DNA of 33,501 bases from Klenkia terrae (GTDB lineage Bacteria > Actinomycetota > Actinomycetes > Mycobacteriales > Geodermatophilaceae), in the NCBI RefSeq assembly GCF_900491935.1, contig NZ_UEXK01000004.1:4428539-4462039 (forward strand). The letters are read 5' to 3'. The translations under genes and the position numbers were made by a program. The number at the start of each line of letters is the position of its first letter. Position 1 is the stretch's first letter. The notes beneath the pieces were generated by a model. The model ran no database searches. It saw only the letters and a program-made list of their open reading frames with translations, and was not told the origin of the DNA. Of this stretch, positions 1,348 to 15,247 are shown piece after piece.

Positions 1348-3975
<2,628 letters not shown>

Positions 3976-4006: not shown

Positions 4007-4168
4007 ATGACCACGATCGCCCCACCCCCAGCACGCCTGGTGCGGACGGCCCCACGACCACCGCGCAGGAGGGTCCGGGCGCGGTACGGCGGCAGCCGCG
4101 ACTGCGCGGTGCGGGTGTGGGGCACCGACACGGGCGCTGACGTGACCGCCGCCGTGGCCGGGTCGTGA
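4007..4168 (+). CDS. Small basic ORF (53 aa) coupled to the downstream ATPase
   Basis: The ORF starts at ATG 4007 with GGGAG (3996-4000) 6 nt ahead, and ends at TGA 4166-4168. The stop overlaps the GTG start of the next ATPase as GTGA. The product begins MTTIAPPPARLVR, is Pro/Arg-rich (PRPPRRRVRARYGG) and ends in an acidic/alanine-rich tail. No family was recognised. The good Shine-Dalgarno sequence and the 4-nt overlap argue that it is translated, if only as a leader peptide that delivers ribosomes to the ATPase, which lacks a clear ribosome-binding site of its own. Its first residues resemble those of the upstream ATPase (MTTLAPASPHRP). It could instead be a chance open frame. Confidence 0.5.
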   Translation: MTTIAPPPARLVRTAPRPPRRRVRARYGGSRDCAVRVWGTDTGADVTAAVAGS

Positions 4169-6630
4169 CCGCCTTGGCGGCCCGGGGCGAACCGGCCTGG
4201 ACGCGGCCGGGCGCCGAGGTGGCGCACGACCAGGGCACCGATCCCGGTACCGGGCTGACCGGGGCCGAGGCAGCCCGGCGGTTGGCTCGGGACGGTCCCA
4301 ACGAGGTGGCGGTGCACCCCTCGCCGCCGCTGTGGCGCTCGGTGCTCGGGCAGCTCAGCGACGTCCTGGTCCTGGTGCTGCTGGCCGCGGCTGTGCTGAC
4401 CGCGATCACCGGCGACCTGGTCGACACCGCCGTCATCGGCCTGGTCGTGGCCGTCAACACCGTCCTCGGGGTCGCCCAGGAGCGCCGCGCGCTGCGGGAG
4501 GTCCAGGCACTGGACGACCTCGTGGCCCCCACCGCCCGGGTGACCCGCGACGGCACCGCCCACTGGGTGCCCACCCGTGAGCTGGTGGCCGGGGACCTGC
4601 TCGCCCTCGCCGCCGGTGACGTGGTCGGTGCCGACGCCCGCCTGCTGGCCGCCGTCCGGTTGCAGGTGGACGAGGCGCTGCTGACCGGGGAGTCGCAGCC
4701 CAGCGAACGGGACGCCGGTCACCTGGCCGACGCCGACGCCCCCGCCGCGGACCGGGCCGGGATGGTGCACGCCGGCAGCACGGTGCTGCGCGGGTCGGGC
4801 ACGGCGGTGGTGGTGGCGACCGGCCCGGCCACGGCGATCGGCCAGGTCGCGGTCCTGGTCGCCGCGCACCGATCACCGCAGACGCCGCTGCAGCGGCGGC
4901 TCGCCGTCCTGGGCCGGCAGATCTCACTGGCCGTGGCCGCGGCGTGCCTGCTCTTCGTGGCCTCCGGTCTGCTGCGCGGCCAACCGTGGGAGACCACCGT
5001 GGTGGCCGCGGTCGCCCTCGCCGTCGCGGCCGTGCCGGAGTCCCTGCCCGCCGTCGTGGCACTGGCGCTGTCAGCCGGGGCGGGACGGATGGGCCGCCGC
5101 GGTGCCGTGGTGCGCTCCCTGCCCGCGGTCGAGACCCTCGGCTCGGTCACCCTGCTGGCCACCGACAAGACCGGCACCCTCACCCGGGGCGCGATGGTCG
5201 TCGACCGGGTCTGGACGCCGGCCGAAGGCGAGGTGGACCTGCCCGCGGACACCCCCGGGGTGCGTGCACTGCTGGAGGCGGCGGCGCTGTGCAACGACGC
5301 CGACGCCAGCGGCGCCGGCCCCGGTGGCGACCGGGGCACCGCGGACACCGAGACCGCCCTGGTGCGCGCTGCCCGGGCCGCCGGCTGCGACGTGGCGGCG
5401 CTGCGCGCGGCGCACCCCCGGACGGCGGAGGTGCCCTTCGACGCGGTGGTCCGCCGGATGACGACGGTGCACCGCGAGCCGGACGGCGGCGCGCGCACCC
5501 TGGTGAAGGGGGCACCGGAGGTGCTCCTGGCCGGGGGTGGCCCGGCCACCGCGGTCGCCGACCGGTGGGCGGCCGACGGGGGTCGGGTGCTGGCGGTGAC
5601 CGCGGACGGCGTCCTGCTGGGGCTGGTGTCGATGGCCGACCCGGTCCGCCCGGAGGCCGCCGCAGCGGTGGCCGCCCTGCACCGGGCCGGGATCGTCGTC
5701 GTGGTGGTCACCGGTGACCACGCGGGCACCGCGGCCGCCGTGGCCCGGCAGGTCGGCGTCCTCGGGGCGGGGGAGGAGCCGGGGGCCAGGGTCCACGCCC
5801 GGGTCGAGCCGGCCGGGAAACTCGACCTGGTCACCGGGTGGCAGGCCGCGGGGCACGTCGTGGCGATGACCGGGGACGGCGTCAACGACGCCCCGGCGCT
5901 GCGGGCCGCCGACATCGGGGTCGCCATGGGCCGGCGGGGGACCGAGGTGGCCAAGGAGGCCGCCGACCTGGTGCTGGTCGACGACAGCCTCGCCACGGTG
6001 ACCGCGGCGGTGGCCGAGGGACGTCGGGTCTTCGACAACGTCCGTCGGTTCGTCGGGTACGGCCTGGCCGGCGGACTCGCTGAGGTGCTGGTCATGCTCG
6101 CCGGGCCGGCGGTGGGCCTAGCGTTGCCCTTGTTGCCGGCCCAGGTGCTCTGGGTCAACCTGCTGACCCATGGCCCGGTCGGGGTCGCGATGGGCGGGGA
6201 GCCCGCCGCACCCGACGTGCTGGCGCGGCGGCCCCGGGACCCGGGGGCCGGTGTGCTGGACCGGTCCCTGGTCACCCAGCTGGTGGCCAACGGGCTCGCG
6301 GTGACGGTGGTCTGCCTGGCCGTGGCGGGGATCTCGCGGGCGGCGGACGGCCCGTGGCAGACCCAGCTGTTCATCAGCCTCGCGGTCGCCCAGCTGGCCC
6401 TGGCGCTCGCCCTTCGACCGGCCGGCGCCTGGTCGCGGCACCGGGCCGGCGTCCCGTGGCTCCCGGTCGCCGTGGCGGTGAACCTGGTGCTGCTGGCCGC
6501 CGCGGTCCTGCTGCCCGCGTTGTCGGACCTGATGGGCACCGAACCGTTGACCGCGCTGCAGACCCTGGCCGCGGTGGGGCCGGCGCTGGTGCCGGCGAGC
6601 CTGGTCCTGCTGGTCCGCCGGCTCCGCTGA
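4165..6630 (+). CDS. P2-type cation-transporting ATPase (CtpF-like)
   Basis: This 821-aa cation ATPase has an N-terminal P-ATPase domain (TGAEAARRLARDGPNEV), TGES at 174-177, DKTGTLT with phospho-acceptor D334, and GDGVNDAP from 570. The M4 motif PESLPAVV has E292. The overall build is that of P2 (Ca2+/Na+-like) pumps and of mycobacterial CtpF, a DosR-regulon member. The M6 segment reads NLLTHGPVG (N665, T668, H669). The Asp that follows Thr in classical Ca2+ pumps (NxxTDG) is His here, so the ion is uncertain. GTG 4165 was chosen because it overlaps the stop of the 53-aa ORF and leaves a normal N-terminus. The ion specificity and the CtpF assignment are inference from fold and setting. Confidence 0.88.
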   Translation: MTALAARGEPAWTRPGAEVAHDQGTDPGTGLTGAEAARRLARDGPNEVAVHPSPPLWRSVLGQLSDVLVLVLLAAAVLTAITGDLVDTAVIGLVVAVNTVLGVAQERRALREVQALDDLVAPTARVTRDGTAHWVPTRELVAGDLLALAAGDVVGADARLLAAVRLQVDEALLTGESQPSERDAGHLADADAPAADRAGMVHAGSTVLRGSGTAVVVATGPATAIGQVAVLVAAHRSPQTPLQRRLAVLGRQISLAVAAACLLFVASGLLRGQPWETTVVAAVALAVAAVPESLPAVVALALSAGAGRMGRRGAVVRSLPAVETLGSVTLLATDKTGTLTRGAMVVDRVWTPAEGEVDLPADTPGVRALLEAAALCNDADASGAGPGGDRGTADTETALVRAARAAGCDVAALRAAHPRTAEVPFDAVVRRMTTVHREPDGGARTLVKGAPEVLLAGGGPATAVADRWAADGGRVLAVTADGVLLGLVSMADPVRPEAAAAVAALHRAGIVVVVVTGDHAGTAAAVARQVGVLGAGEEPGARVHARVEPAGKLDLVTGWQAAGHVVAMTGDGVNDAPALRAADIGVAMGRRGTEVAKEAADLVLVDDSLATVTAAVAEGRRVFDNVRRFVGYGLAGGLAEVLVMLAGPAVGLALPLLPAQVLWVNLLTHGPVGVAMGGEPAAPDVLARRPRDPGAGVLDRSLVTQLVANGLAVTVVCLAVAGISRAADGPWQTQLFISLAVAQLALALALRPAGAWSRHRAGVPWLPVAVAVNLVLLAAAVLLPALSDLMGTEPLTALQTLAAVGPALVPASLVLLVRRLR

Positions 6631-8287: not shown

Positions 8288-9322
8288 TCAGCCACCACGT
8301 ACGGGGTATGTCCCCGATCCCGGTGTGGTGCCCGCTGTGGCGGTCCGGTCGATCGTCGACCCGGCCGGGCGGCGGCCGGTGCGCGGGAGCGGTGCGCTGT
8401 GCAGCGGGAGCCTGCCCAGGCGCACCAGCACCTGCGGGACCAGGCCCGGCGGGAGGACCTCCACCGCGAGCCGGTCGCGCACATCGGGCACCTCCACGAG
8501 CTCGCTGACCACGTGGCTGGCCAGGCCGGCAGCAGTTGCGTGCAGCAGGACGGCGGCGAGGGCCTCGCCCGCCTCCACCTGGTCCAGCGGTCGATCCCCC
8601 GTGGTGGCCAGGACTGCCAGCCGAGCGCCGTCCCGCAAGGGGAGCGGTGAGACGCCGACGGACAACTCGGCGGTCGCGAACCGACGCGCCGGGACGTCAC
8701 CCGGGTCCGGACCGGCCGGGACGTCGGCGCCCGGGACCCCGTCCGGGGAACCCGCAGGTCGCCCGGACCAGGCGCGGGTCTCGGCAGCCACCCGCGGGTC
8801 GGCCGCGATCCGGGCGGCTGCGGCCTCCGCCAGCTGGCCCACGACCCGGTGGGCGGCCGGTTCGACGAGGACCAGGTGGGCCCGGTGGACCGCGGCGGTG
8901 GCAGCCAGCTGGTGCCACCATCCCTCGGGCACGGGTTCATCGGCGAATGCCCGCCGATCGGTCTGCCGGTGGGCGACCGCAGCGGCGAGCGCGGTGTCGC
9001 CCGGCGCGGGTACGGCGGGGGTGAGGTCGACCGTGGCCAGGTGGTGGGGATCGGCCGGGTCGGGGAACCGCCGGACCTGCGCGGACCATCCTGCGGCCCG
9101 GGCGACGACCACCAGGTGCTGGAGCACCGCCCCGCAGCTCAGCAGCAGTTCACGACCGGAGGGGTCGGTGGCCGGGAGGGCCCGGTCCAGGTCGGCGAAC
9201 AGCTGCAGGCCGGCCGGGTCCAGCCGCCACCGCCAGGGCTGGGTGTTGTGCACGGAGGGGGCTCGCTGGGCGAGATCGACGAGCTGCAGGACGTCGTCGG
9301 GGTGCAGTGCAGTGCCGGGCAC
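8288..9322 (-). CDS. Acg-family FMN-binding nitroreductase
   Basis: This 344-aa protein of the nitroreductase fold carries the flavin motif APSVHNTQPWRW (about residues 21-32), a TDRRAF motif in mid-protein, and the C-terminal AGEALAAVLLHATAAGLAS helix followed by VLVRLGRLP. Family members in mycobacteria (Rv2032 Acg, Rv3131, Rv3127; about 330-345 aa) are induced by DosR in hypoxia and NO stress. The open frame reaches GTG 9520, but GTG 9322 was chosen for four reasons. It gives the family length. It has GGAG 6 nt ahead. The extra 66 residues are low-complexity Pro/Gly/Arg. A DosR-like box (9399-9412) then falls upstream instead of inside the gene. The degenerate paralogue lies directly downstream. 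The last about 30 residues are disordered. Confidence 0.85.
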   Translation of the reverse strand: MPGTALHPDDVLQLVDLAQRAPSVHNTQPWRWRLDPAGLQLFADLDRALPATDPSGRELLLSCGAVLQHLVVVARAAGWSAQVRRFPDPADPHHLATVDLTPAVPAPGDTALAAAVAHRQTDRRAFADEPVPEGWWHQLAATAAVHRAHLVLVEPAAHRVVGQLAEAAAARIAADPRVAAETRAWSGRPAGSPDGVPGADVPAGPDPGDVPARRFATAELSVGVSPLPLRDGARLAVLATTGDRPLDQVEAGEALAAVLLHATAAGLASHVVSELVEVPDVRDRLAVEVLPPGLVPQVLVRLGRLPLHSAPLPRTGRRPAGSTIDRTATAGTTPGSGTYPVRGG

Positions 9323-9398
9323 CGGGGTCTCCAGGTGGTCTGCCGCCGTGGCCGGCGGGTCGGGCACCGACCCTCGCCCGCCTCTGCCCGCCCGACCA

Positions 9399-9412
9399 GG
9401 GCCGGTGGTCCC
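9399..9412. promoter_or_regulatory. DosR-like box upstream of the nitroreductase
   Basis: GGGCCGGTGGTCCC is a full match to GGGNC-N4-GNCCC, centred about 83 nt before GTG 9322 on the minus strand. It supports the shorter start for the nitroreductase, since the longer frame would place the box in coding sequence. Confidence 0.38.
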
Positions 9413-9540
9413 CACCCCGGGTGGCCCGAGGTCATCGGGGACCGGACTGCCCCGTCGACACCGTGCGCTGGCCCTCTGCTGCGGCGGTCGCGGACCAGGT
9501 TGCGGGTCGCCCGTCGTCACGCGGTCCAGCTGTCCGGTCC

Positions 9541-9546
9541 TAGTCT
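9541..9546 (+). promoter_or_regulatory. -10 element of a leaderless promoter
   Basis: TAGTCT lies 6 nt before ATG 9553, the spacing at which transcription would begin at or next to the start codon. There is no Shine-Dalgarno sequence ahead of this gene. Confidence 0.55.
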
Positions 9547-9552
9547 CCGGGC

Positions 9553-9855
9553 ATGGCGGCGTGGACGTTCCTGACCAACCATGCCCACGTGCTGCTGTGC
9601 GTCGCGCGGGACCGGGGGGTGCGGCTGCGCGACATCGCCGAGGCCGTCGGCATCACCGAGCGGGCGACGCAGCGCATCGTCACCGAGCTCGCGGAGGCCG
9701 GTTACCTCAGGCGGGAGAAGGAGGGCCGGCGCAACGTCTACCGGCTCGATCCCGATCTCCCGCTCCGTCACCCCTTGGAGCGCGACCACGCCATCGGGGA
9801 GATCCTCCGCGTGCTGACCCCGTCCCCGGTGGAGGCGGCGTTCCCGGCCCCTTGA
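9553..9855 (+). CDS. Small winged-helix transcriptional regulator
   Basis: This 100-aa protein consists almost entirely of one winged helix-turn-helix domain of MarR/ArsR/TrmB type. A first helix (WTFLTNHAHVLLCVARD) precedes the HTH LRDIAEAVGITERATQRIVTEL with recognition helix ERATQRIV, and then the wing GYLRREKEGRRNVYRL. A short tail (HPLERDHAIGEILRVL) may dimerise. No metal-binding cysteines are seen. Such proteins are common, little-studied regulators in actinomycetes. TAGTCT (9541-9546) implies a leaderless mRNA. The terC promoter, with repeated GACAT/ATGTC half-sites, begins inside the last codons of this gene, so control of terC is an attractive but unproven role. Confidence 0.82.
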   Translation: MAAWTFLTNHAHVLLCVARDRGVRLRDIAEAVGITERATQRIVTELAEAGYLRREKEGRRNVYRLDPDLPLRHPLERDHAIGEILRVLTPSPVEAAFPAP

Positions 9856-9879
9856 CACCCGACATGGATGTCCTATGTC
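9852..9879 (+). promoter_or_regulatory. Strong sigma-70-type promoter of terC with operator-like half-sites
   Basis: A perfect TTGACA -35 hexamer (9852-9857) is followed after 16 nt by TATGTC (9874-9879). Transcription would begin near 9886, just ahead of the riboswitch. The spacer carries GACAT-GG-ATGTC (9861-9872), and a further ATGTC lies at 9875-9879 within the -10, 7 bp from the previous copy. This looks like an operator for a repressor. The regulator is unknown; the adjacent winged-helix protein is one candidate. Confidence 0.7.
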
Positions 9880-9887
9880 ATCAGGGA

Positions 9888-10007
9888 CAGCAAGGGGAGT
9901 ACCCCACGACGGCGCGTCGTCACCACGACTCGACAGCGAGTCCGGCGCGACCGGTCCGGCGCTGAGCCGGGCGGGGGAGACCTTCGACATGGTCGGAGGT
10001 CTGCCCC
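9888..10007 (+). promoter_or_regulatory. yybP-ykoY manganese riboswitch
   Basis: The invariant L1 sequence GGGGAGTA is at 9894-9901, preceded by AA so that AAGG (9892-9895) can pair with CCTT (9981-9984) as helix P1. The L3 element CTGAG is at 9962-9966, and the 3' hallmark GAGACCTT is at 9977-9984. Internal hairpins include GACTCG-ACAG-CGAGTC. The expression platform is an 11-bp hairpin, 9978-9988 with 9992-10002 and loop ATG, that buries the Shine-Dalgarno GGAGGT (9995-10000). P1 and this hairpin compete for CCTT. Mn2+ binding should therefore stabilise P1, free the ribosome-binding site and switch TerC on, as known for alx and mntP. Conserved motifs are seen; the mechanism is inferred. Confidence 0.9.
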
Positions 10008-10970
10008 GTGGACGTGCTCGACTTCGCCGTGCCCGCCTGGGCCTGGGTCGCCCTGACGGTCGGCATCGCCGCCATGCTGGCCATCGACCTGTTCCTGCAC
10101 CGGGACGACCACGAGATCGGCTTCCGCGAGGCCGCGACGTGGAGTGCGGTGTGGATCGCGGTCGGTCTGGGCTTCGGCGTCCTGATGTGGATCTGGCAGG
10201 GCGGGGACGTCGCCGGGGCCTACTACTCGGGCTACCTGATCGAGAAGGCGCTGTCGATCGACAACGTGTTCATCTTCGCGATGGTCTTCGCCGCCTTCCA
10301 CGTCCCGGCGGCATACCAGCACAAGGTGCTGTTCTGGGGCGTCATCGGGGCGCTCGCCTTCCGGCTGGTCTTCATCTTCGCCGGTGCCAGCCTGCTGGAG
10401 ACCCTGTCGTGGACGGCGTTCCTGCTCGGGGGACTGCTGCTGTACACCGGCTGGGCGACGGCCTTCCGCCACGGGCAGCAGCTCGACCCCGACCGCGACC
10501 TCCTCGTCCGCCTGGTCCGGCGCGTCGTCCCGACGACGACGGAGTTCCACGGCAGCCGCTTCTTCGTCCGCATCGACGGTCGGCGGACGGCCACGCTGCT
10601 GTTCGTCGTGCTGGTCGCCGTGGAGGCCACCGACCTGGTGTTCGCCGTGGACTCCGTGGCCGCCGTCCTGGCCATCACCACCAACACGTTCCTGGTGTGG
10701 ACCGCCAACGCCTTCGCCGTCCTGGGACTCCGCGCGCTGTACTTCTGCCTGGCCGGGCTCCTCAGCCGCTTCGTCCTGCTGCACTACGGCCTCGCGCTGC
10801 TGCTCGTCTTCGCCGGGATCAAGCTCATCCTCTCCGAGACCCCCGTGGGCAAGCTCCCCATCCCCCTCACCCTCGGGGTCATCGTCACCACGCTGGTGGT
10901 CAGCATCGCCGCGAGCCTGTGGGTGACCCGTGCCGACCGTCCCCAGACCGATCCTGCCCACCGGAACTGA
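10008..10970 (+). CDS. TerC/Alx family manganese exporter
   Basis: This 320-aa integral membrane protein has about seven to nine hydrophobic segments. The two family motifs EKALSIDNVFIFAMVF and EATDLVFAVDSVAA carry acidic residues within membrane helices, the likely metal path. The Alx/TerC (now MeeF/MeeY) branch exports Mn2+. The Mn2+ riboswitch directly ahead supports that function here more strongly than the old tellurite-resistance name. Start GTG 10008 has GGAGGT (9995-10000) at 7 nt, and that site is sequestered in the riboswitch hairpin. The baeRF3-type gene starts 27 nt downstream with its own ribosome-binding site and may be co-transcribed. Confidence 0.93.
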   Translation: MDVLDFAVPAWAWVALTVGIAAMLAIDLFLHRDDHEIGFREAATWSAVWIAVGLGFGVLMWIWQGGDVAGAYYSGYLIEKALSIDNVFIFAMVFAAFHVPAAYQHKVLFWGVIGALAFRLVFIFAGASLLETLSWTAFLLGGLLLYTGWATAFRHGQQLDPDRDLLVRLVRRVVPTTTEFHGSRFFVRIDGRRTATLLFVVLVAVEATDLVFAVDSVAAVLAITTNTFLVWTANAFAVLGLRALYFCLAGLLSRFVLLHYGLALLLVFAGIKLILSETPVGKLPIPLTLGVIVTTLVVSIAASLWVTRADRPQTDPAHRN

Positions 10971-10996
10971 TCCCACCGACCTCGAGGAGGCCTGTC

Positions 10997-12364
10997 ATGA
11001 CCAGCACGCTCGCCCCGGCGCCGATCCCGTCGCACACCACCCCTCTGCCGCTCCCCACCCCGCCGGAGGTGGTGGCGCTGCAGGCGCTCCGTGCGCAACC
11101 GGCCGTGTCCGTGCTGTGCACGACCGTCCCCGGGCCGCGGATGACCGGCGAGGACGCCGCCCGGCTGCGTGCGCTGGCCGCAGCTGCACGCAGCCGGGTG
11201 ACCGCCGAGCTCGGGTCCGTGGCGGCCGAGCCGCTGGTCGAGCGGTTGGACGAGCTGGTCACCGATGCCGTCGGGCGGGCCACCCGGCTGGCGGTGGCGT
11301 TGTTCGTCAGCGACCGGGCCTCGTCATCTTGGTCGCTGTCGGTCGAGGTCGTCGACCGGGCGGTCGTCGACCCCACCTTCGCCACACGCGACCTGGTCCG
11401 GTCCCTGCACCGCACCCCGCGCCACGTCGTGCTGGTGCTGACCGACCGGCAGGCCCGCCTGTTCGACGGCCTCGGTGACAGCCTCCTGCCGGCGGTGTCC
11501 CGGTTCCCGATGGACAGGGAGCCCCGCCCGTCCTCGCACGGGCGAGCCGGCCGGCACGGGCGCGGCGGCCGGGTCGAGCGCAACGGCGACGGCGGCGATG
11601 CTGCCCGGACGGCGTGGTTGCGCTCCGTGGACAGCGCGCTCGGGGCCCACCTGGCCCTCCACCCTGCCCCATTGGTGGTCGTCGGCGCCGAGCGTCTGCT
11701 GGCCCGTTTCGCCGGGCTGTCCCGCAACCTCGACCGGCTGGCCGGCACGGTCGTCGGCAGCCACCGGCCCAGCGATACGGTGCCGACCGGACCGACGGCA
11801 CCGGGCAGTGAGGCCGGTGGGCGGTGCGCGGTGGGGACCGGTGTCCGATGCACGGAGCGAGCCGCCCAGCTGTGCAGCAGTCCTACGCCGACCGGGTCCT
11901 GGCGGCGCGGCTCGGAGTGGCAGGGCTGGTGGACCCGGCCATGGAGGCCTTGGAGCGGGCGCTGGCGAGCAAGGACGAGGCGGTGGCGCTGCGCGCTGCG
12001 GGGGCCGCCCAGGTCGTACTGGAGCGCCTGGCACGCAAGGGAGCCACGGTGGCGTTCCACATGGGCGAGGATGGTGCAACGGTCCGATCGGGGGCCGACA
12101 TCGTGCGGGAGCGACTGCGCGCAGTCGGCGCCGCGAGGGCCGAGCACCCGGGGGGTGGTCGGCCAGGCCTCGGCCGTGGAGACCGTGGGCAAGCCGTGGA
12201 GGCCGAGCTGGTGGACGAATGGGGCTGAAAGTTTCACCAGCTCGGTCCTGACGGCCCTACCGTCCCGGCATGGGGACAGACGCCTGGGCGCTGATCGTGG
12301 CCATCCTGGCGCTGGTGGTGGCCGGGTACGGCATCCACCGGCAGAACACCTATGCGGCGCGTGA
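10997..12364 (+). CDS. baeRF3-type protein, C-terminal third replaced
   Basis: ATG 10997 has a strong GAGGAGG (10984-10990) 6 nt ahead. Residues 1 to about 260 match the actinobacterial baeRF3 (release-factor-like) family, with the stretches VVDPTFATRDLVRSLHRTPR, HVVLVLTDRQARLFDG, and LVVVGAERLLARFAGLSRN followed by LDRLAGTVVGSH. Family members then continue for about 110-120 residues through the catalytic-loop-like C-terminal domain. Here recognisable sequence stops near base 11776. The frame stays open to 12364 but translates to Trp/Arg-rich text typical of out-of-frame reading, and a different coding frame takes over at 11848. The gene looks truncated by recombination or deletion, and the product is probably non-functional or partly functional. 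The family's function is poorly known; a ribosome-associated stress role is proposed from domain analysis. Confidence 0.65.
   Translation: MTSTLAPAPIPSHTTPLPLPTPPEVVALQALRAQPAVSVLCTTVPGPRMTGEDAARLRALAAAARSRVTAELGSVAAEPLVERLDELVTDAVGRATRLAVALFVSDRASSSWSLSVEVVDRAVVDPTFATRDLVRSLHRTPRHVVLVLTDRQARLFDGLGDSLLPAVSRFPMDREPRPSSHGRAGRHGRGGRVERNGDGGDAARTAWLRSVDSALGAHLALHPAPLVVVGAERLLARFAGLSRNLDRLAGTVVGSHRPSDTVPTGPTAPGSEAGGRCAVGTGVRCTERAAQLCSSPTPTGSWRRGSEWQGWWTRPWRPWSGRWRARTRRWRCALRGPPRSYWSAWHAREPRWRSTWARMVQRSDRGPTSCGSDCAQSAPRGPSTRGVVGQASAVETVGKPWRPSWWTNGAESFTSSVLTALPSRHGDRRLGADRGHPGAGGGRVRHPPAEHLCGA
11848..12228 (+). CDS. Orphan helical protein, possible mobile-element gene
   Basis: This 126-aa ORF (start ATG 11848; GTG 11824 possible) has clearly coding codon use, unlike the frame of the truncated baeRF3 gene that it overlaps. 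It reads YADRVLAARLGVAGLVDPAM, then ALERALASKDEAVALRAAGA and AAQVVLERLARKGATVAF, a run of alanine-rich helices. Short phage and integrative-element proteins, such as small-terminase-like ones, often have this texture, but no family was recognised. The tail is Gly/Arg-rich. It begins just where baeRF3 homology ends, so it probably came in with, or marks the edge of, foreign DNA. Confidence 0.5.
   Translation: MHGASRPAVQQSYADRVLAARLGVAGLVDPAMEALERALASKDEAVALRAAGAAQVVLERLARKGATVAFHMGEDGATVRSGADIVRERLRAVGAARAEHPGGGRPGLGRGDRGQAVEAELVDEWG
12258..12263 (+). promoter_or_regulatory. -10 element of a leaderless promoter
   Basis: TACCGT lies 6 nt before ATG 12270, which has no Shine-Dalgarno sequence. 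This fits leaderless transcription of the membrane-anchored protein gene. Confidence 0.5.
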
Positions 12365-13839: not shown

Positions 13840-15072
13840 GTGACGTTGGGGATGAGCAAGAAGCGTCAATACGGGGAGGGAGGTATCAGCGAGTACCGCA
13901 CCAAAGCTGGTCCTCGGTACTACATCAAGTACATGGCCCTGCGGCCCGATGGGACGCGCTCTGCGGTCCTGAAGCGTGGATTCGTCAACCGGCGTGAGGC
14001 CGCCTCAGCGCTGCGGGCCGAACTCCGGAACCTCGAGACCGGCCAGTGGGTCGATGTTTCGAAGCAGTCGCTCAGTGCCTACCTGGCTGAGTGGCTGGAC
14101 GGACAACGGCTGGCCCCTTCCACCCTGTCCAGCTACCAGAAAAATGTTCGCCTGCACATCGATCGCCACATCGGCAAGACCCCGCTTGACCGTCTGACGG
14201 GCCTTGCGATCGATGGGTGGATGCGCAAGCTTGAGAGGTCTGGGCGAGCAGACGGAGCCGGCGGGTTGTCAGCGCGGACGGTGCGATACGTCTTCACCAT
14301 CCTGAGATCCGCATTGGCGGATGCGGTGAAGCATGGACACCTCGCCGTCAACCCGACCGACCGCTCAACACCCCCGACGGCGTCGCAGGCACGGCCCCCC
14401 GAGATGCAGGCATGGACGGCTGCAGAGCTCGCACGGTTCCTCGGCTGGGCGGAGAAGTACGACTCGGACATGGCCGTCGCATGGCACCTGCTCGCTTTCA
14501 CCGGCATGCGGCGGGGTGAGGCTCTGGCTCTGCGCTGGCGTGACGTCGATCTAGAGGCCGCCCGCATCGCCGTGCGGCGCAGCGTGGGCTTGGTGAAGCA
14601 CAAAGGGGAGGGCGAGGAGCTGGTGGAAGGTCCGACCAAGACTGGCCAAGCTCGGGTCGTCGACCTCGACGCCGGCACCGTGGAACGCCTGCGTAGACAT
14701 CGGGCGGTACGAGGCGCTCTCTCCCCGGAACTGATCCGCGGCACTGCTGTCGTGCTCGGTGACCTCGAAGGCAACCACCGTCACCCTGAGCGGTTCTCTC
14801 GGCGTTTCCTCGGTCACCTCAAGCGGGCGCAGCGCGCCCTGGGCGACGACAGGGTCCCGACGATCAGGCTGCACGACCTGAGGCACACACACGCCACGCT
14901 TCTCCTGGCGGACGGTGAACCGGTGAAGGTCGTCTCCGAACGGTTGGGGCACGCGAGCGCGACTATCACCTTGACCGTCTATCAACACGTGCACCCCGGG
15001 ATGGGCAAGCAGGCAGCCACTCGGTTCGCGACTTTGCTCGACGAAGCGTCTGAGGGACGACCCGCGGAGTGA
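13840..15072 (+). CDS. int: Tyrosine-family site-specific integrase
   Basis: This 410-aa tyrosine recombinase has an N-terminal AP2-like arm-binding region (KRQYGEGGISEYRTKAGPRY), a SAM-like core-binding domain (LSAYLAEWLDGQRLAPSTLS) and a complete catalytic domain. Catalytic residues seen are R224 (TGMRRGE), K267 (PTKTGQAR), H345-R348 (HDLRHTHA), H371 (LGHAS) and nucleophile Y381 (TVYQHV). The enzyme should be active if expressed. Start GTG 13840 has GGGGAG 6 nt ahead; ATG 13852 is an alternative. The gene ends 90 nt from the 3' end of tRNA-Leu, the usual arrangement for elements that integrate into a tRNA. GC content is lower than in the core genes. No tail, capsid or conjugation genes are in the window, so it is the main visible part of a small or decayed element. 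Confidence 0.93.
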   Translation: MTLGMSKKRQYGEGGISEYRTKAGPRYYIKYMALRPDGTRSAVLKRGFVNRREAASALRAELRNLETGQWVDVSKQSLSAYLAEWLDGQRLAPSTLSSYQKNVRLHIDRHIGKTPLDRLTGLAIDGWMRKLERSGRADGAGGLSARTVRYVFTILRSALADAVKHGHLAVNPTDRSTPPTASQARPPEMQAWTAAELARFLGWAEKYDSDMAVAWHLLAFTGMRRGEALALRWRDVDLEAARIAVRRSVGLVKHKGEGEELVEGPTKTGQARVVDLDAGTVERLRRHRAVRGALSPELIRGTAVVLGDLEGNHRHPERFSRRFLGHLKRAQRALGDDRVPTIRLHDLRHTHATLLLADGEPVKVVSERLGHASATITLTVYQHVHPGMGKQAATRFATLLDEASEGRPAE

Positions 15073-15092
15073 TTGGGATCAAATTGGGATCA
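15072..15092. repeat. Tandem ATTGGGATCA repeats beside the integrase stop
   Basis: ATTGGGATCA occurs at 15072-15081 and again at 15083-15092, spaced 11 bp (one helical turn). It begins at the last base of the integrase stop codon and lies between integrase and tRNA. The position and phasing fit arm-type integrase-binding sites of an attachment region. Confidence 0.5.
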
Positions 15093-15120
15093 CCGCCGGT
15101 CTGCGGTCCGAAAACGCAGA

Positions 15121-15156
15121 CACCCCGGGCTCCTGAACTGCAGGAACACCGGGGTG
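15121..15156. terminator. Hairpin terminator between integrase and tRNA-Leu
   Basis: CACCCCGG (15121-15128) pairs with CCGGGGTG (15149-15156), and an inner TCCTG (15131-15135) pairs with CAGGA (15141-15145). It lies just 3' of the minus-strand tRNA and downstream of the plus-strand integrase, so it may stop both transcripts. Confidence 0.7.
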
Positions 15157-15162
15157 AAGCTG

Positions 15163-15247
15163 TGTCCGAGGGGGGACTTGAACCCCCACGCCCGATAAAG
15201 GGCACTAGCACCTCAAGCTAGCGCGTCTGCCATTCCGCCACCCGGAC
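15163..15247 (-). tRNA. tRNA-Leu (anticodon GAG)
   Basis: The 85-nt cloverleaf on the minus strand has acceptor stem GTCCGGG with CTCGGAC and anticodon arm CTAGC-TTGAGGT-GCTAG with anticodon GAG, reading CUC/CUU leucine codons. It also has a class II long variable arm (GCCCTTTATCGGGC) and T-arm GGGGG-TTCAAGT-CCCCC. The CCA end is not encoded, as is usual in actinomycetes. A TATGCT hexamer on the minus strand (15288-15283) is a possible -10. The 3' end faces the integrase and is the probable integration target. Confidence 0.96.

Follow-up and report, generated by a model that had tools for sequence, protein, structure and literature searches.

The TerC gene and its surroundings

The window (the whole stretch of 33,501 nucleotides that was analysed) carries a gene for a TerC/Alx family membrane protein of 320 amino acids (10008-10970, forward strand, as are all features of the leader and the TerC unit given below). 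It begins with GTG at 10008, and its product matches PF03741 at 162.1 bits and the NCBIfam model TIGR03718, named 'R_switched_Alx', at 375.7 bits (cut-off 246.4), in agreement with the earlier note, which had placed a TerC gene behind a switch. Directly upstream of the leader lies the gene for a 100-aa winged-helix (MarR/ArsR-like) protein (9553-9855). Among the best 80 of 141 TerC loci, 59 have a homologue of it, in 50 cases less than 800 bp from TerC, and the protein is perhaps a transcriptional partner of TerC. Other genes near TerC encode a Band 7 protein (13-1251), an MgtA-type P-type ATPase (1348-3975; TIGR01524 at 657.4 bits, over the cut-off), a PMR1-like P-type ATPase (4165-6630, below the cut-off) and an Acg-type FMN oxidoreductase (8288-9520). 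Similarities of the neighbouring genes had raised the idea of a DosR-type cluster around TerC, which was given up when the DosR box found no match in the window.

Upstream of the leader, our own scan picked out a weak, possible -35 hexamer, TTGACA (9852-9857). The best -10 candidate is TGTCAT at a spacing of 18, which is not a good one, and a stricter scan returned no promoter there. The words GACAT/ATGTC are repeated at 9858-9882, between TTGACA and the aptamer, and could represent an operator. Relatives of the aptamer described below (here called elements) were also inspected on their upstream side. For the 76 of these with at least 75 nt of upstream sequence, a promoter signal is weakly enriched (22 TANNNT starts 17-20 nt before GGGAGTA); given the weakness of this enrichment, a conserved promoter before the aptamer was rejected.

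Only 26 nt past the TerC stop begins an open reading frame (10997-12364) whose first ~256 amino acids resemble Balon-type ribosome hibernation factors and match baeRF_family3 (PF18845) at 52.1 bits, over the cut-off. Against NF052287 (AOC03_06830, Balon) it scores 104.3 bits over model positions 3-231 of 361, which is below the cut-off of 330, a value reached by none of the 396 genomes of the phylum that were searched. The C-terminal third of a relative's Balon-like protein is found in no frame at this place, and the gene is probably truncated. Further along, an integrase gene (13840-15072) adjoins tRNA-Leu(GAG), and a 20-bp exact copy of the 3' end of this tRNA occurs 51.25 kb away from it, at a site with no tRNA gene. 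The window's TerC sits between the two repeats. By its sequence, the segment of ~51 kb (G000:C4:4392451-4443721, where G000 is the window's genome; noted in the window at 13840-15247) is a probable integrative element at tRNA-Leu(GAG), carrying the TerC riboswitch as part of its load. The closest TerC found is 81% identical and comes from an uncultured Corynebacteriales MAG; among TerC homologues on plasmids (2640 records), two are at 60-80% identity.

Fold and identity of the aptamer

TIGR03718 is present in 39 of 41 genomes (36 over the cut-off), with four copies in the window's own genome. From these genomes 74 upstream regions were taken (one of 153 nt), and 44 of them hold GGGAGTA and GAGACC 40-160 nt apart. 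With the two leaders of the window's genome left out, the remaining 42 form an alignment (A1) and the covariance model built from it (R1); the training set contains neither the window's genome nor the alx leader of Escherichia coli. In the 33.5-kb window R1 finds a single site, 9889-9986, at 64.9 bits (E 3.6e-13, or 3.2e-13 when the window is searched alone), and the match spans the full model (positions 1-103 of 103). The same model recovers the E. coli alx leader (MG1655, locus L105, 875-1000) at 45.2 bits (E 1.2e-8). Applied to the 30 regions without the two motifs, together with the two positives of the window's genome, it gave as its sole addition L102, which is the same DNA as L060; two further matches there, with E of 0.3 and 0.58, were taken as chance.

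The fold assigned to 9889-9986 is that of the yybP-ykoY (Mn2+) family, in accord with what the earlier note had claimed for this leader. Helix P1.1 joins AAGG (9892-9895) to CCTT (9981-9984), and P1.2 joins CCCC (9902-9905) to GGGG (9973-9976). Between them lies L1, with GGAGTA (9896-9901) on its 5' side and GAGA (9977-9980) on its 3' side; GAGA and the CCTT that follows it make up the switch strand (9977-9984). The P3 arm (9910-9953) consists of P3.1 (9910-9916/9946-9953, A9950 bulged) and P3.2 (9927-9932/9937-9942), separated by L3, whose 5' side is TCGTCACCAC (9917-9926) and whose 3' side is 9943-9945. The P4 hairpin (9954-9972), indicated by folding and by R1, has the loop GCTGA. The L1 motif, GGGGAGUA (9894-9901) with GAGACC (9977-9982) closing on P1, is present, and the strings named earlier, GGGGAGTA (9894-9901), AAGG (9892-9895) and GAGACCTT (9977-9984), all stand where they had been placed. 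This does not apply to CTGAG (9962-9966) as a conserved motif: it is the apical loop of P4 plus the closing G, varies in A1, and was rejected in favour of L3 GTCGTCA (9916-9922) as the conserved second motif. Within L3, all 42 rows of A1 share GTCA, which had no part in row selection; since GGGAGTA and GAGACC served as the filter, the invariance of these two in A1 is by construction. A9922 matches the Mn2+-contacting adenosine, A41 in Lactococcus lactis and A48 in Xanthomonas oryzae, as mapped from the sequence strings given in PMC6754395.

All five helices (P1.1, P1.2, P3.1, P3.2 and P4) are backed by covariation in relatives. The pairs were named by hand and then scored, replacing an RNAalifold fold from a MAFFT alignment that was partial and doubtful. 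In A1, 88.9% of the cells are paired, against 76.1% after shuffling, and the covariation score is 0.409 against 0.174, a value as high being reached in none of 500 shuffles. The 31 matches from named organisms (29 distinct) give 92.9% paired and a score of 0.403 against 0.136, in an alignment that was fitted to R1 and so leans to the model. There is no helix P2: four nucleotides (ACGA, 9906-9909) join P1.2 to P3.1 at the place where P2 stands in members with a four-way junction, and alx likewise lacks it. P2, and with it the four-way junction, is a variable and not a defining feature of yybP-ykoY. Its loss was considered as a novelty and rejected as such, because a three-way form has already been described for mgtA of Streptococcus pneumoniae (PMC9495176).

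The search with Rfam RF00080 proposed in the earlier note gave a different result. The model (Rfam 15) has no match in the window, either at its gathering score or at E≤10, and no site in the whole genome at E≤0.001. The earlier note had named such an outcome as a refutation. However, the E. coli alx leader, whose response to Mn2+ has been published, likewise goes undetected by this release at E≤1, which means that RF00080 is not a valid means of refuting membership, and it was dropped as arbiter. Its gathering score is a cut-off for the library rather than a biological criterion. Over 20 of the 44 loci with both motifs it places four matches correctly, the best at 22.7 bits where the cut-off is 45, with none at the window's own leader; in six named loci with R1 matches it gives none over the gathering score. 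Homology and fold of the leader are established by computation with R1 and the covariation of its helices. Taken together with the switch and the target, our reading, to which we give a probability of roughly 0.85, is that the leader belongs to the yybP-ykoY (Mn2+) riboswitches, in their P2-less form, and turns on translation of a TerC/Alx-family gene.

Exchange between P1 and the Shine-Dalgarno hairpin

Overlapping the 3' end of the aptamer is an anti-Shine-Dalgarno hairpin (9978-10002), assigned to the OFF state, with 11 bp (9978-9988/9992-10002) and the three-nucleotide loop ATG (9989-9991). As the earlier note had described, it buries the Shine-Dalgarno sequence GGAGGT (9995-10000), in which the last G of GGAGG is 8 nt from the GTG. 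When the 37 nt of the hairpin stretch were shuffled 200 times, only two of the products folded as well as the native sequence. The CCTT at 9981-9984 is common to P1, where it pairs with AAGG, and to the hairpin. No terminator-like site occurs in 9500-11200, and transcription attenuation was rejected on this ground.

The sharing is also seen in relatives. Among the 141 of 163 unique elements with a hairpin score of at least 15, a variable base of the switch strand faces A in P1 in 58 of 59 cases when it is T, and G in 81 of 82 cases when it is C. Opposite the same base, the Shine-Dalgarno arm has 38 A, 20 G and 1 T against T, and 76 G, 4 A, 1 C and 1 T against C, numbers that are inflated on this side since the hairpin search is biased to pairing and the rows are related. 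In a swap control with 162 elements, the mean pairing of each with its own downstream sequence is 18.5, compared with 15.1 for swapped sequences, the largest of 200 swaps giving 15.6. For 166 of 167 elements compared with mononucleotide shuffles of the downstream sequence, the best hairpin with its anchor on the switch strand reaches a score of 21.4, and the shuffles one of 14.6; 81 of the 166 beat their shuffles at p≤0.04, and 101 have a strong Shine-Dalgarno-like word in the 3' arm. A hairpin that hides the Shine-Dalgarno sequence is therefore common but not universal among the elements. Shared switch strand, conserved exchange and target gene are computationally established, and P1, switch strand and Shine-Dalgarno arm covary as a three-way exchange across actinobacteria.

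Translation of TerC induced by Mn2+, as first proposed in the earlier note, is the likely mechanism; we infer it from homology with alx, the covariation of aptamer and switch strand, and the swap control. At low Mn2+, CCTT (9981-9984) would be drawn into the 9978-10002 hairpin, leaving the Shine-Dalgarno sequence hidden and TerC untranslated. At high Mn2+, a metal ion held between L1 and L3 (at A9922) would dock the two arms and stabilise P1 (AAGG:CCTT), so that the hairpin would be blocked, the Shine-Dalgarno sequence free and TerC made. Its product would then lower or redistribute Mn2+.

By nearest-neighbour energies, forcing P1 in the window's leader leaves a gap of 22.5 kcal/mol to its best fold. 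The median of this gap over 166 rows is 11.2, and only five of the 166 are as extreme, including the window's copy and its duplicate; the other two elements of the genome have gaps of 3.6 and 8.9. P1.1 has only 4 bp, a length found in 16 of the 166 rows, and five rows have fewer. By these energies the window's copy appears to lean unusually far to the OFF state, and the calculated gap would be too large for metal binding to overturn at equilibrium. A large gap alone does not exclude switching, as alx has 13.6 in the same calculation. The hairpin greatly exceeds P1 in stability, which makes it probable that the RNA commits to one structure while still being transcribed, when the 3' arm of the hairpin is not yet complete. 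The modelled gap thus argues for kinetic control or, alternatively, for a locked copy.

If the latter applied, this would be a genuine aptamer in a mobile copy locked OFF, the hairpin beating the 4-bp P1 at every Mn2+ level, and TerC would be little expressed, or expressed from another start. The short P1.1 and a gap near the extreme of the 166 rows fit this, as do the position of the copy inside the probable integrative element, the failure to find it in the eight other genomes of the genus and the apparent truncation of the gene after TerC. However, the aptamer preserves every helix as well as the metal-site adenosine, and the closest relative found (81% protein identity; row U_L051, gap 18.4) keeps the GACCTTCGAC/GTCGGAGGTC exchange, which suggests selection. 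The energy model, moreover, leaves out metal, tertiary contacts and kinetics, and a locked copy is quite improbable.

Slightly less probable still is a leader that responds chiefly to alkaline pH or Ca2+ rather than to Mn2+, a behaviour reported in part for alx and for mgtA of S. pneumoniae. An alx reporter rose 3.5-fold at pH 8.5 alone (PMC9603457), the mgtA aptamer is reported to bind Ca2+ more tightly than Mn2+ (PMC9495176), and Na/Ca-exchanger genes stand behind four elements with scores over the Pfam cut-off, and behind a fifth with a score below it. Against such sensing, most of the classed targets come from families counted among Mn efflux or detoxification systems (PMC13274385), and the adenosine reported to confer Mn2+ preference (PMC6754395) is retained. 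A chance likeness in GC-rich sequence, with the hairpin an ordinary translation-attenuating one, would explain the lack of an RF00080 match, and GC-rich leaders generally fold strongly; it is already contradicted by the R1 E-value (3.6e-13), the covariation and the target specificity, and its probability is close to nil. An Mn2+-responsive ON switch, whose ligand and direction we infer from these comparisons, is therefore the reading retained.

Targets in the phylum and relation to known systems

Under strict filters, R1 elements occur in 90 of 396 genomes of the phylum, and RF00080 matches in 14 of the same genomes, one of them over the cut-off. The two lists overlap solely in G155, with matches at different places; the 13 RF00080 genomes missing from the R1 list indicate that neither model is complete. 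Annotation and regulon counts for yybP-ykoY in the phylum are thus probably too low, and the current RF00080 leaves a set of actinobacterial Mn2+ riboswitches unreported. Targets were classed by protein matches within about 1.3-1.5 kb behind the element, where the contig allowed, for 124 elements (126 rows less G239, at a contig edge, and G039:C1:285259, already counted as L098). The genes are for TerC (61), GDT1/UPF0016 (26), P-type ATPases (19) and others (18), and for 104 of the 106 that were classed, no more than 300 nt separate the element from the start of the matching frame. Most targets in the phylum are TerC, GDT1 and P-type ATPase genes. The 18 others comprise Na/Ca exchangers (5, one below the cut-off; loci L148, L192, L195 and L237 among them), M48 proteases (3; L202, L220, L221), which we take to be HtpX-like, M50 proteases (2; L174, L178), one zf-dksA and one PGPGW protein, four without a family (two of these without any Pfam match, one examined by way of a distant ORF) and two at contig ends. 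The window's own genome has three elements, before a TerC tandem, a GDT1 gene (L108; PF01169 at 133 bits) and the window's TerC; the eight other genomes of the genus have one or two each. Among the best 80 of 141 named TerC relatives, 30 have an element directly upstream, and one more match lies elsewhere in its locus.

The families of TerC, GDT1 and cation P-type ATPases are named as Mn efflux or detoxification systems (PMC13274385), and the occurrence of the element before all three strengthens the link to Mn2+. Of the earlier claim that this TerC serves Mn2+ export rather than tellurite, the tie to Mn2+ is supported; export would be a putative role, as metalation of exoenzymes has also been reported for TerC proteins (PMC10550928). 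Where the family name points to tellurite, the likely signal for the window's TerC is Mn2+. The genes for GDT1, P-type ATPases, Na/Ca exchangers, M48 and M50 proteases and, rarely, Balon-like proteins near elements become candidates for a manganese-stress regulon.

Of 30 loci with the element, 6 have a Balon-like gene near TerC, compared with 2 of 50 loci that lack the element (Fisher p 0.047, with related rows). G041 (C7:4164-6340) has element, TerC and Balon-like gene in this order, and in Mycolicibacterium sp. CR10 (L268) the element (2812-2915) stands directly before a Balon-like gene (locus span 2812-3722). Compared by eye, the phylum matches listed contain such neighbours in G000 and G041, and in G317 on the opposite strand; so few in the phylum sample count against a general link. 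In a literature search that joined the topics, the one paper listed with both subjects is a review of Clostridioides difficile riboswitches (PMC11477304). Balon genes have been described in stress operons, in a paper whose main text does not contain the word manganese (PMC10901736). It is conceivable, if unlikely, that in some actinobacteria ribosome hibernation is under Mn2+ control, through a TerC-Balon unit or through a Balon-like gene directly. If so, an excess of Mn2+ would lead both to removal of the metal and to silencing of ribosomes, and in the window's genome the TerC-Balon unit would be cargo of the probable integrative element, with an apparently truncated Balon-like copy.

The E. 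coli alx leader has the same L1 and L3 motifs as the window's and the same absence of P2, and its GACCTT just 3' of L1 can similarly swap P1 for a GC-rich hairpin. The gene under its control codes for a TerC homologue with the annotation 'Mn(2+) exporter Alx', and the leader is reported as Mn2+-responsive in reporter assays (PMC9603457). It differs in being AT-richer, in its long P4 and in the position of the start codon, 66 nt beyond the hairpin, which means that the alx hairpin, unlike that of the window, does not bury the Shine-Dalgarno sequence directly. For mntP a translational ON switch is reported (PMC9603457). By description, the window's leader is also like that of Corynebacterium glutamicum cg2157 (terC), likewise actinobacterial, for which RF00080 was predicted (49.13 bits with the then-current Rfam) and a transcript 5' end was observed at the aptamer (PMC3890552). 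In Vibrio parahaemolyticus, of another phylum, mneA and terC have predicted yybP-ykoY riboswitches and Mn-induced expression (PMC13274385); these represent the two gene families that also occur in the window's genome, TerC and TMEM165/UPF0016 (here equated with GDT1). The L1/L3 metal site, the invariant adenosine and the P1.1 switch helix are shared with the crystal structures from L. lactis and X. oryzae, in contrast to the four-way junction with P2 described for both and the transcription antitermination described for X. oryzae (PMC6754395). Riboswitches of this kind are thus known, with C. glutamicum terC and E. coli alx and mntP as precedents; new here are the phylum-wide set that RF00080 leaves unreported, the probable ~51-kb integrative element and the Balon-like gene after TerC.
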